The translations under genes and the position numbers were made by a program. Positions 22,216 to 41,391 of a stretch of 64,000 nucleotides of DNA are shown here, piece after piece (the stretch's first letter is position 1; each line of letters opens with the position of its first letter). Under the pieces are notes generated by a model that was not told the DNA's origin, made no database searches, and saw nothing but the letters and a program-made list of their open reading frames with translations. The stretch is from Weissella bombi (GTDB lineage Bacteria > Bacillota > Bacilli > Lactobacillales > Lactobacillaceae). The DNA is taken from contig NZ_FMAO01000001.1 of NCBI RefSeq assembly GCF_900094835.1, forward strand, positions 1 through 64,000. The letters are read 5' to 3'.

Positions 22216-23088
22216 ATGTCGCAAATTATACAATGGTTTCCAGGACACATGGCGAAAGCCTTTCGTTTAATGCGAGAAAACTTAAAGCATGTTGATATTG
22301 TTTTTGAGTTAGTAGATGCACGAATTCCATTATCGTCGCGTAATCCAGAATTAGATGAAGTTTTAGGTGATAAGCCGCGCTTAATTGTCATGACCAAAAC
22401 AGATTTAGCTGATCCAGAAAGAACAAGTGTATGGCGCAATTACTTTGAAGAACAAGGATTAACTGTTGTTTCTCTAGATACTCGTGGTCATAAAACACCA
22501 CAAATTATCACGAAAGCAGCACGCATAGTTTTAGCGGACAAATGGGCTAACTTGGCACAAAAAGGTGTTCAAGACAAAGCGATACGAGCATTAGTTGCGG
22601 GTGTGCCTAATGTTGGTAAATCAACCCTTCTAAATCACTTGGTTACTAAAAATGTCGCCATTACAGGAGATCGTCCAGGAGTTACCAAGAAATTGCAGTG
22701 GTTAAAGACACCAACTAATTTAGAATTATTAGATACGCCCGGAGTATTATGGCCTAAATTTACGGATCAACGAGTTGGTCAACATTTGGCAATGACAGGA
22801 GCGATTAAAGATCAATTAATTAATTTGGATGATATTGCATTAGCTGCTTTAAAATTCTTTAGGGAATATAATCCAGAAGCGATTGTAGCGCGCTATCATT
22901 TAAATGATGGTATTTGGGCAGCACAATCCGATGTAGATGTATTATTAACAATTACTCAAAAATTAGGCTTTAAAGATGATTATGATCGTGCTTCTGAACG
23001 TTTGTTACTTGATTTAAGGCGTGGTAAGTTAGGACGTTATACTTTGGAATTACCAAGTGATAATATTGGTGAAGTAGTAGATGACTAA
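22216..23088 (+). CDS. rbgA: Ribosome biogenesis GTPase RbgA (YlqF)
   Basis: A 290-residue circularly permuted GTPase needed for late 50S assembly. The order of motifs is the permuted one: G4 (TKTD near 58) comes before G1 (GVPNVGKST near 130) and G3 (DTPG near 174). The N-terminal QWFPGHMAKA is diagnostic. A C-terminal ANTAR-like RNA-binding region follows. It overlaps rnhB by 8 bases, a pairing conserved in Bacilli (ylqF-rnhB). Confidence 0.95.
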   Translation: MSQIIQWFPGHMAKAFRLMRENLKHVDIVFELVDARIPLSSRNPELDEVLGDKPRLIVMTKTDLADPERTSVWRNYFEEQGLTVVSLDTRGHKTPQIITKAARIVLADKWANLAQKGVQDKAIRALVAGVPNVGKSTLLNHLVTKNVAITGDRPGVTKKLQWLKTPTNLELLDTPGVLWPKFTDQRVGQHLAMTGAIKDQLINLDDIALAALKFFREYNPEAIVARYHLNDGIWAAQSDVDVLLTITQKLGFKDDYDRASERLLLDLRRGKLGRYTLELPSDNIGEVVDD

Positions 23089-23845
23089 CAAAGAAACAAT
23101 TGGCAACATAAAAGAGCTATTGCTTGATGAACCATCTGCAGAAGATATTGCACGATGGCGACAAGATCAGCGTGTTGGAGTGCAAAAATTACTGACGCAG
23201 TATGATAAACGGCAGGTTAAAAAGCAGCGCCAACAGCAAGCGTTTGAACATCGTTTAATGTTTGAAAAACAAGCTTGGCAACATGGTGCTCGATTAGCTG
23301 GGGTTGATGAAGTGGGCCGTGGACCATTAGCTGGACCAGTCGTTGCGGCAGCTGTTGTAATCGATGATTCGTTTGATATGACGATTGTACATGATTCTAA
23401 GCAGTTAACGGAAAAAACACGCCTAGGTCTTGACCAAGAATTACGTGAAAAAGTGGTTGATTTTGCTTTTGGAATTGTTGATGCATCAGAAATTGATCGT
23501 TTAAACATTTATGAAGCTTCGAGAGTTGCCATGCGTCAAGCAATTGAGGCATTACACACACCTATAGACGGGCTTTTAATTGATGCGATGACTGTTGATT
23601 TACCGTTACCACAGGAAAAATTAATTAAAGGTGATGATCGCAGTATTTCTATTGGTGCAGCATCTATTTTAGCTAAAAATTATCGTGATTCGTTAATGAA
23701 AGATTTTGCTAAAAAATTTCCAGGATATGGGTTTGAACATAATGCTGGTTATGGGACTGCTGAGCATCTAGCTGGTTTGGAAAAATTTGGTGTAACACCA
23801 ATTCATCGACAAACTTTTTCGCCAGTAAAAAAGTATTTAAATTAA
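23081..23845 (+). CDS. rnhB: Ribonuclease HII
   Basis: A 254-residue enzyme that cleaves RNA in RNA/DNA hybrids and at single misincorporated ribonucleotides. After an extension of about 70 residues, GVDEVGRGPLAGPV supplies the first two acidic ligands, HDSKQLT the next block and DAMTVD a further aspartate. The C-terminus has GYGTAEH. The start lies within rbgA. A long inverted repeat begins 6 bases after the stop and runs into dprA. Confidence 0.95.
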   Translation: MTNKETIGNIKELLLDEPSAEDIARWRQDQRVGVQKLLTQYDKRQVKKQRQQQAFEHRLMFEKQAWQHGARLAGVDEVGRGPLAGPVVAAAVVIDDSFDMTIVHDSKQLTEKTRLGLDQELREKVVDFAFGIVDASEIDRLNIYEASRVAMRQAIEALHTPIDGLLIDAMTVDLPLPQEKLIKGDDRSISIGAASILAKNYRDSLMKDFAKKFPGYGFEHNAGYGTAEHLAGLEKFGVTPIHRQTFSPVKKYLN

Positions 23846-23850
23846 TAAAC

Positions 23851-23914
23851 AAATCACGTTGTAAAACGTCTTTCCTATAAACGGAGGATGTTAAATGGAA
23901 CAACGTGATTTTTT
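23851..23914 (+). promoter_or_regulatory. Long hairpin enclosing the dprA ribosome site and start codon
   Basis: AAATCACGTTGT (23851-23862) is exactly complementary to ACAACGTGATTT (23900-23911). Inside, AACGTCTTTC (23865-23874) pairs with GGAGGATGTT (23883-23892) with three G-T pairs around an 8-base loop. The inner stem contains the GGAGG ribosome site. The ATG (23895) lies in the internal loop. Six T (23909-23914) follow the outer stem, as in a terminator. The structure could block dprA translation, end the rnhB transcript inside dprA, or both. Confidence 0.7.
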
Positions 23915-24761
23915 ATTGTGGCTAATGTTAGTACCGGGTTTGACTATTAAAGGTCGATATCGTATTTGGCAATATCTGCATCAAAATAGTTTTACAGTAA
24001 TACCTATACAGATGGTTTTAAAATTAAGTCAACTTAGTCATAAAAAACAACAAATTATTTTTGAGTGGTACCATCAGAGAAATTGGCAGGTAGAATTTCG
24101 GCGTATTAAGAGTTATCACTTTATTACCATATGTGATGAGAAATATCCTAAGTATTTGTCAACATGCATTGATGCACCTATTTGTTTATTTTATCAAGGT
24201 GATTTAGATTTACTATCTCAACCATTAATTGCAATTGTAGGCGCACGTAAAGCTACTGATTACGGTAAAAAAATTTTACACGCATGGGTACCGTATCTGA
24301 TAAAATCAGGTTTAACGACTGTTTCTGGGTTAGCACTAGGTATTGATGAATTAACACATCGTGCCACATTAACTGCGGGCGGTAAAACAATTGGTATTAT
24401 CGGAACGGGACTTGATTGGGCATATCCAAATCGTACTGACCGTCTGCAGGAGCAAGTTGCTATTCAAGGTTTATTAATATCTGAATATTTACCTTGGCAA
24501 AAACCTGAACGAAAAAATTTTCCTGAACGTAATCGTATTATAGCTGGGTTGAGTCATGTATGTTTGATTGTTGAAGCACAAAAAAGGTCAGGTTCTTTAA
24601 TAACGGCTATGATTGCTTTAGAGCAAAATCGCACTGTCATGGCTGTTCCAGGACGTATAGATACCCAGTGTTCAAGAGGAACAAATGAGTTAATTTTAGC
24701 TGGTGCAACACCAGTATTAGTGCCACAACAGATTGTGTTGGAATTTAAGAATTTCTATTAA
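23895..24761 (+). CDS. dprA: DNA-processing protein DprA
   Basis: A 288-residue protein that loads RecA on incoming single-stranded DNA during transformation. The Rossmann-like core has IVGARKATDYG, SGLALGIDELTHR, GTGLDWAYPNR, FPERNRIIAGLS and RSGSLITA, all characteristic. There is an N-terminal helical region but no C-terminal winged helix, as expected for the short Gram-positive form. GGAGG lies 7 bases before the ATG but is buried in the hairpin described separately. It lies between rnhB and topA, the usual Firmicute order. Confidence 0.95.
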   Translation: MEQRDFLLWLMLVPGLTIKGRYRIWQYLHQNSFTVIPIQMVLKLSQLSHKKQQIIFEWYHQRNWQVEFRRIKSYHFITICDEKYPKYLSTCIDAPICLFYQGDLDLLSQPLIAIVGARKATDYGKKILHAWVPYLIKSGLTTVSGLALGIDELTHRATLTAGGKTIGIIGTGLDWAYPNRTDRLQEQVAIQGLLISEYLPWQKPERKNFPERNRIIAGLSHVCLIVEAQKRSGSLITAMIALEQNRTVMAVPGRIDTQCSRGTNELILAGATPVLVPQQIVLEFKNFY

Positions 24762-24788
24762 TTGCTAAAAAAATAAGACTGTGAGCAT

Positions 24789-24818
24789 TTGGCAAATCTC
24801 AGGTTGATAGTGTATAGT
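24789..24818 (+). promoter_or_regulatory. Candidate topA promoter
   Basis: TTGGCA (24789-24794) and TATAGT (24813-24818) with an 18-base spacer. The leader to the ATG at 24885 would be about 60 bases. Confidence 0.45.
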
Positions 24819-41095: not shown

Positions 41096-41391
41096 TATAA
41101 TTTAAAACAAAGTGATCAGGAAAGTATATATTAATCTAAATTTTAGAGAACTACGGGTTGGTGGAACGTAGTATAAGGATGATGTAGAAAATGGCCTGTG
41201 ATTGGGTATTATGAATGGCAAGATCATGAATAATACACGGGTTGGTCTTCGTTATTAGACACACGTGTAGGTACGGCATCATTTCGCCCGCTGCTTGCAC
41301 GTTTGGAGTTTCTTTTAAGTAATTAATTGGAAAAAATAGAATGGTAACACGATAAGTCGTTTCTAGGTATATCCTAGGGACGGCTTTTTTT
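41096..41391 (+). ncRNA. T-box leader, probably methionine-specific
   Basis: Stem I closes with TGATC (41113-41117) against GATCA (41222-41226). AGAGA and the distal loop GGTTGGTGGAA between ACTACG and CGTAGT are standard stem I signatures. An ATG at 41211-41213 sits where the specifier codon is expected. The antiterminator bulge is TGGT (41342-41345), pairing with an ACCA tRNA end. A 14-bp terminator (41354-41386) and T run follow. Uncharged tRNA-Met would favour readthrough into metQ-msrA. The tRNA-Met at 369-442 has discriminator A, as required. Confidence 0.87.
41354..41391 (+). terminator. Regulated terminator of the T-box
   Basis: AAGTCGTTTCTAGG pairs with CCTAGGGACGGCTT around TATAT and is followed by seven T. 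Its 5' side overlaps the antiterminator region. Confidence 0.9.

Follow-up and report, generated by a model that had tools for sequence, protein, structure and literature searches.

The nested hairpin at the rnhB-dprA junction of Weissella bombi is, on the comparative evidence below, real and conserved, and it probably serves as an insulating terminator and ribosome-site block wrapped round a competence promoter. According to this model, RNA running on from ylqF-rnhB would include both 5' arms of the hairpin and would fold so that the dprA ribosome site is paired; the outer helix, together with the U run, would then halt the polymerase within codons 6-8 of dprA. When a SigH/ComX-type sigma factor is active, transcription would start inside the hairpin, downstream of both 5' arms. 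Because this start would lie near 23880, the competence RNA would be without both 5' arms; it would have a freer ribosome site, no terminator would be possible, and dprA would be made. We infer the start site, the termination and the identity of the promoter at dprA. In its features, it resembles an insulator more than a sensor.

The window, which is the whole 64,000-nucleotide stretch of DNA analysed, belongs to a genome of 1.82 Mb (G000; genomes are numbered with G and loci with L). Its named relatives, as compared by DprA, are W. hellenica, at 78%, followed by W. sagaensis, at 76%. The gene order in the window is ylqF-rnhB-dprA-topA-xerC; the names of rnhB and dprA are supported by NCBIfam equivalog models above cut-off, and topA comes next. 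The positions of the features are listed in Table 1. The outer 5' arm begins 5 nt after the rnhB stop codon (23843-23845), and the outer 3' arm starts at the third base of codon 2 of dprA and ends with the second base of codon 6, the ATG being located at 23895-23897. Direct reading of the sequence agrees with the initial annotation, which had described exact 12-base outer arms and a 10-bp inner stem with GGAGG: the outer arms are exact reverse complements over 12 bp, and the inner stem is composed of 10 pairs, three of which are G-U. The annotation had also placed the 3' outer arm in the dprA coding sequence, followed by six T. This too is correct, with the first three T of 23909-23914 being part of the arm, so that three T come after the 12-bp stem. 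In the predicted fold of the junction, A+T pairing extends further outward.

Table 1. Features at the rnhB-dprA junction of the window and downstream of it
Feature	Position	Strand	Evidence or remark
rnhB (ribonuclease HII)	23081..23845	+	ORF; NF000594 314 bits, cut-off 243; co-directional, upstream of dprA
Candidate -35 region AAACAAATC	23847..23855	+	Weak in this species; shares bases with the outer 5' arm; the -10-like motif follows at 20 nt
Outer 5' arm AAATCACGTTGT	23851..23862	+	Sequence, fold, covariation
Inner 5' arm AACGTCTTTC, anti-ribosome-site strand	23865..23874	+	Fold
CGTCTTT, -10-like element, in inner 5' strand	23867..23873	+	comGA+comEA matrix score 6.3
Putative competence transcript start	23879..23882	+	Inference only; about 6-9 nt after the motif
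Inner 3' arm GGAGGATGTT	23883..23892	+	Sequence and fold; includes ribosome site GGAGG, 23883-23887
dprA	23895..24761	+	TIGR00732 231.5 bits, cut-off 191
Outer 3' arm ACAACGTGATTT	23900..23911	+	Within dprA codons 2-6; sequence, covariation
T run, six T, of the embedded terminator	23909..23914	+	Sequence
Sigma-70-like site before topA	24789..24818	+	Consensus match only; 3 sites versus 7.2 in shuffles

Folding of the region, which had been named as a check, gave -25.6 kcal/mol for 23830-23930, compared to -13.5 ± 3.3 kcal/mol for shuffled sequences (z -3.71; 1 of 200 shuffles was as good). By our rule for embedded terminators (at least six T in eight, at most one mismatch), dprA of the window carries one, with -21.5 kcal/mol for -44..+17 and a T-rich tract directly behind the hairpin. 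The A+T richness of the stem and the shortness of the free U run count against the preferred reading. The 37-nt loop encloses the promoter-like motif, the ribosome site and the start codon, and the 3' arm is coding. A simple terminator scan (loop 3-8) did not report the dprA hairpin, the loop of which carries the nested inner stem. The Rfam covariance-model search gave nothing over the gathering score at 23851-23914. On the + strand between 23000 and 25000, the site before topA was the sole match of the sigma-70 scan, and 23000 to 24788 was empty. Elsewhere in the window, 41103-41367 (+) matches the T-box leader family with 107 bits (RF00230), and there are six tRNA genes at 3-526.

A dprA match is present in 28/28 genomes of the genus examined. 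Viewed on the coding strand, the junctions of most species fold into an equivalent nested structure, with differing letters. Compensatory changes in the two arms had been proposed as a further check, and they are present. Alignment A1 contains 23 of the 28 dprA junctions (21 distinct sequences); it omits L006, L023, L024, L025 and L029, the junctions of which are different or poorly aligned, and retains L019 despite its absent helix. In A1, 86.5% of the cells of the outer 12-pair helix are paired, compared to 73.4 ± 1.5% in shuffles (0/500 as high). Two-sided changes occur at 9 of the 12 outer pairs (1/500 shuffles as high), and the number of cells with such changes is 23, versus 6.5 in shuffles. 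The covariation of the outer helix is 0.305, versus 0.110 ± 0.021 in shuffles (0/500 as high); the Weissella rows share kinship, which makes p values of this kind too small. When the partner was slid by 1-3 columns, 39-59% of the cells were paired and the covariation was at most 0.161.

The arms of each species also fit one another. For 16 of the 22 dprA with an embedded terminator, the duplex energy of the own 3' arm with the 5' region was unmatched by foreign arms, which were counted if they differed at 5 or more of 24 bases. The exceptions are L009, L010, L018, L022, L026 and L028, for which 1-10 foreign arms pair equally well. The outer pairing is no better than with shuffled 5' regions in 5 of the 28 dprA (L006, L019, L024, L025 and L029).

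These comparisons bear on two rival readings. A chance hairpin might be kept through conservation of the DprA N terminus (RDFLLW) and of the promoter; the 3' arm does lie in coding sequence, with conservation of the R-x-F region. However, the two-sided changes and the preference for the own arm disfavour it, and we regard it as very improbable. The same very low probability is given to a DNA operator, i.e. a 12-bp inverted repeat bound by a dimeric regulator. The exact inverted repeat does surround a promoter-like region, but it varies by species with compensating changes (for example in L013, L027 and L028), and the arms that pair in L016, L017 and L020 have a quite different sequence, whereas a binding site should keep its sequence.

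The initial annotation had expected a coding constraint on codons 2-6 of dprA. All 22 dprA that carry the embedded hairpin use TTT as the F codon, as do 4 of the 6 that lack it. TTC is found only without the embedded terminator (2/6 versus 0/22), in L024 and L029, which also speaks against the chance hairpin; L025, likewise without the embedded terminator, reads GAG TTT CTG. The rows are few, and the direction is as expected for a codon constraint, of which this is a sign.

Some junctions depart from the common form. L019 and L023 have a tight rnhB junction and no terminator by the rule; L023 still has a strong single hairpin, and L020, the sister of L019, still has a nested one. The dprA of G006 (L014) contains an in-frame TGA and its frame ends after 183 aa; the hairpin is nonetheless intact. 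The comGA of G006 (L102/L104) is broken in two, with a stop. Judging from these frames, the competence genes of G006 are decaying.

To describe the state of the ribosome site, we computed its mean unpaired fraction in the 22 embedded dprA, with the motif position hand-picked for each species. It is 0.10 in the read-through RNA and 0.52 in the RNA from the putative start. The site is more open from the putative start in 21 of the 22, and L018 is reversed; the release is partial. In the read-through RNA, the median unpaired fraction is 0.02 for the 28 dprA versus 0.44 for 106 controls, and it is 0.20 for both comGA and comEA. The initial interpretation is supported in part. At the level of sequence, there is one structure at the rnhB-dprA junction in which the ribosome site is paired and which ends in a T run, with the covariation and the sign of codon constraint in its favour; termination and repression by it are predicted.

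Two ways out of the block had been offered, opening of the hairpin or use of a different promoter. The first would correspond to a sensing leader, in which the hairpin of the read-through RNA is opened by temperature, by a metabolite or protein, or by coupled translation of rnhB, so that dprA is switched on. The nested helices do conceal the ribosome site, and with the rnhB stop only 5 nt from the arm, a stalled ribosome could disturb the hairpin. However, there is no invariant ligand-type loop: A1 has five invariant columns, all T, which belong to the T run and to codons 6-8. The arm letters vary while the pairing is kept, and no Rfam match was obtained. Opening of the hairpin is unsupported here and a sensing leader appears improbable; the different promoter is favoured by a shared competence motif inside the hairpin. 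The initial annotation had missed that a promoter-like element appears to lie inside the hairpin, and that other competence genes have an ordinary terminator or an embedded one of their own.

The upstream regions of comGA and comEA have a common CGTCTTT-like motif. In most cases, it is found 15-35 nt ahead of the start, and TTTTGGA(C)A(T)TTTT precedes it by 20 nt. The -35-like element is clear in comGA, comEA and the dprA of the G004-G010 group; it is degenerate in most dprA, including that of the window. The motif changes by species in step across genes: it is CGTCTTT in the species of the window and CTCTTT in the G004-G010 group, and G010 has TTGGAAAAAT at the -35 position of both dprA and comGA. 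A matrix built from comGA and comEA (trained without dprA; comGA L078, with a wrong start, was absent from the scoring) gave 22 of the 28 dprA starts a score beyond the 95th percentile of the 39 window starts, and the remaining six a score below it. The dprA of the window ranks second of these 39 starts, which include dprA itself. The sole start above it is 54187 (+), with GCTTTCTTT and a score of 7.4.

The motif is also carried by coiA (ACTCTTTAT) and comC (CGTCTTTCT) of the same genome. Across eight whole genomes, the pattern CGTCTYTNTT..AGGRGG gave 9 matches in 7 genomes, which precede comEA (3), comGA (2), dprA (3) and a radC-like gene (1); the reversed pattern gave no match in these eight genomes. 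This strict pattern has no match in the genome of the window, where dprA reads CGTCTTTCC. An earlier promoter pattern with a strict -35 was too strict, matching only comGA of the window's genome. The radC-like gene follows the CGTCTTT motif at L141 1440-1520 (G018) and encodes a protein of 144 aa, which matches two RadC models, both below cut-off; it is a probable competence-controlled radC.

A candidate for the sigma factor is a SigH-like ORF of 185 aa at G000:C23, between rlmB and rpmG-secE (neighbours named by eye), which was located via TIGR02937 and then with the protein of a congener as query. Similar sigma-like ORFs of 180-208 aa are present in eight congeners. The protein of a congener is above cut-off for the sigma-70 superfamily and scores 18.5 bits with the curated SigH model, far below the cut-off of 208 bits; the name SigH-like comes from the locus position. 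The one match of PF04542 in the genome of the window is a 390-aa frame, which was taken as the housekeeping sigma factor; a 142-aa frame at G000:C6, considered as a sigma candidate, was set aside. CGTCTTT would be the -10 element of the SigH-like factor. In L. sakei, the qPCR values of PMC3364868 give a 2163 ± 1242 fold increase of dprA upon sigH overexpression, with a wild-type Ct of 32.9, near background.

One fixed terminator rule was applied to dprA, comGA, comEA and controls. Among 28 dprA, 22 have an embedded terminator, four an ordinary one and two neither. Compared to dprA, comGA is mostly ordinary (25 of 27, with one both and one neither; 27 of 30 loci, excluding the fragments L103-L105 and including L078). 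The 25 comEA comprise 19 ordinary, four embedded, one both and one neither (25 of 27 loci, the start being unclear in L117 and L132; L133-L135 are other proteins). Of 106 controls, 19 are ordinary, 87 neither and none embedded. With the both-cases included, embedded terminators are thus found at 28/80 dprA, comGA and comEA starts versus 0/106 controls, and at none of 38 other starts of the window. At the 80 starts, embedded and ordinary terminators are mutually exclusive (26 and 48, with two both and four neither; Fisher p 1.2e-14, which is too small, the rows being related). For coiA, 20 of the 26 counted are ordinary, one is embedded and five are neither.

The orientation of the upstream neighbour was assigned by a heuristic. 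This analysis used 21 of the 26 coiA (the start is unclear in L166, L182, L184, L188 and L189). Over the five genes taken together, a co-directional neighbour lies before 97 starts. Of these 97, 63 are ordinary, 25 embedded, one both and eight neither, giving 89/97 insulated starts. The eight are dprA L019 and L023, comGA L091, comEA L122 and four coiA. Of 22 divergent starts, 17 have neither terminator, two an ordinary and three an embedded one. The three are comC of the window's genome (L207, weak), coiA L168 and comEA L123, which was called divergent, reads co-directional and is probably mis-oriented. In 20/20 comC loci, the neighbour is divergent, in most cases rpsL-rpsG (identified by eye), and 17/20 are without either terminator. 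Need therefore predicts presence: co-directional starts are mostly insulated, whereas the divergent comC is mostly without a terminator. A conserved CCGGGCGT stretch is located upstream of comC (L190-L209); it could be part of the promoter or the leader of rpsL.

Embedded terminators are found where the gap to the upstream gene is 37-74 nt, and ordinary ones where it is 57-260 nt. This fits an alternative that we consider unlikely, though less so than the others, namely an ordinary terminator of the rnhB operon that overlaps dprA because the rnhB-dprA junction is short, with dprA expressed from read-through and with the motif and the ribosome-site pairing incidental. It also has a precedent, in that B. 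subtilis dprA depends on sucCD read-through limited by a terminator and Rho, according to PMC12350095. However, at co-directional gaps of 30-80 nt, embedded terminators are found at 25/31 competence starts versus 0/16 controls. The motif, moreover, is also present at competence genes with ordinary terminators or divergent neighbours.

Each of the four dprA with an ordinary terminator has an embedded sister in the DprA tree: L006/L005, L024/L021, L025/L028 and L029/L027. L006 lies 152 nt from the contig end, so its upstream gene is not visible, and its ordinary terminator is weak (-7.6). Embedded comEA are located in G020 and, in another clade, in G001, G024 and G011, which suggests that they arose at least two times; on the tree, comEA are labelled 'conv' by default, even where they are 'both', 'neither' or unclassified. 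At the comEA start of G020 (L123), the overlap is extreme, the -35-like GGACACCTCC itself forming the arm opposite the ribosome site GGAGGTGT.

Beyond Weissella, the other-genus set consists of 40 genomes of the 301 among the matches listed, one region of which has no readable frame (L042); the starts assigned to L060 and L062 are doubtful. Of the 39 readable dprA starts, which represent 24 of 39 other genera, 14 from eight genera have an embedded terminator by the strict rule, 20 have neither and five an ordinary one only; two of the 14 are both. These 14 also speak against an ordinary rnhB terminator. A T run is found just before the ATG in 11 of them. A CGTA-type match is present upstream of 13 of the 14; the pattern, a loose one, also occurs at most of the other starts.

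The preferred reading, an insulating terminator round a competence promoter, has partial counterparts in known systems. For T4 gene e, soc, 49 and I-TevI, PMC3014915 describes long early transcripts in which the ribosome site is paired; the late promoters of gene e are just upstream of the ribosome site, and their transcripts, without the 5' strand of the hairpin, are translated. Like that of gene e, the Weissella dprA ribosome site is computed to be paired in the longer transcript. In place of the alternative promoter of gene e, Weissella has the candidate motif CGTCTTT in the inner 5' arm, with a predicted start. Different from gene e, the Weissella case concerns a cellular competence regulon, with more cases at comEA, and its outer helix and U run resemble an intrinsic terminator that enters the coding sequence.

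As for sucCD-dprA of B. subtilis, growth-phase dprA would be kept off by halting upstream read-through. However, B. subtilis dprA is without its own promoter, driven by read-through and subject to Rho (PMC12350095), whereas Weissella has a promoter-like element inside the terminator. Compared to ordinary intrinsic terminators, the Weissella hairpin has the same stable stem followed by T, but its loop is 37 nt and its 3' arm coding.

In the leaders of the IS10 and IS50 transposases, read-through RNA hides the ribosome site and the element's own transcript does not; unlike Weissella dprA, these belong to mobile elements and have no terminator round the promoter. The late-competence element of streptococci is TACGAATA; the Weissella element differs from it, being CGTCTTT and overlapping the hairpin arms.

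Activation of dprA and com genes by an alternative sigma factor of the SigH/ComX type is described in PMC3364868 (L. sakei) and PMC6560143 (S. pneumoniae), and the pneumococcal late set includes radC, coiA and dprA (PMC6560143). The pneumococcal srf-29 ends at a terminator inside the late gene cbpD, its role being left open by the authors of PMC6560143. Our searches of open-access literature turned up no report of a competence promoter enclosed by a terminator.

Taken together, about 64 bp would carry four overlaid functions, promoter, ribosome site, protein start and terminator, including codons 2-6 of dprA. The arrangement would provide a simple rule for silencing a competence gene beside a housekeeping gene, and would make a prediction at the level of sequence: where there is room, a separate terminator; where there is none, a fold round the promoter; where the neighbour is divergent, none. 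If so, RNA 3' ends just inside genes with promoters for alternative sigma factors may represent insulation and not unknown riboregulators. It is possible, though we hold it only tentatively, that a promoter within a terminator is a general and repeatedly evolved means of silencing regulons in crowded genomes, as at dprA of the Lactobacillaceae, anew at comEA, and at srf-29. Transcripts from outside would then stop themselves, and those started inside would not, which would explain why srf-29 ends inside cbpD.
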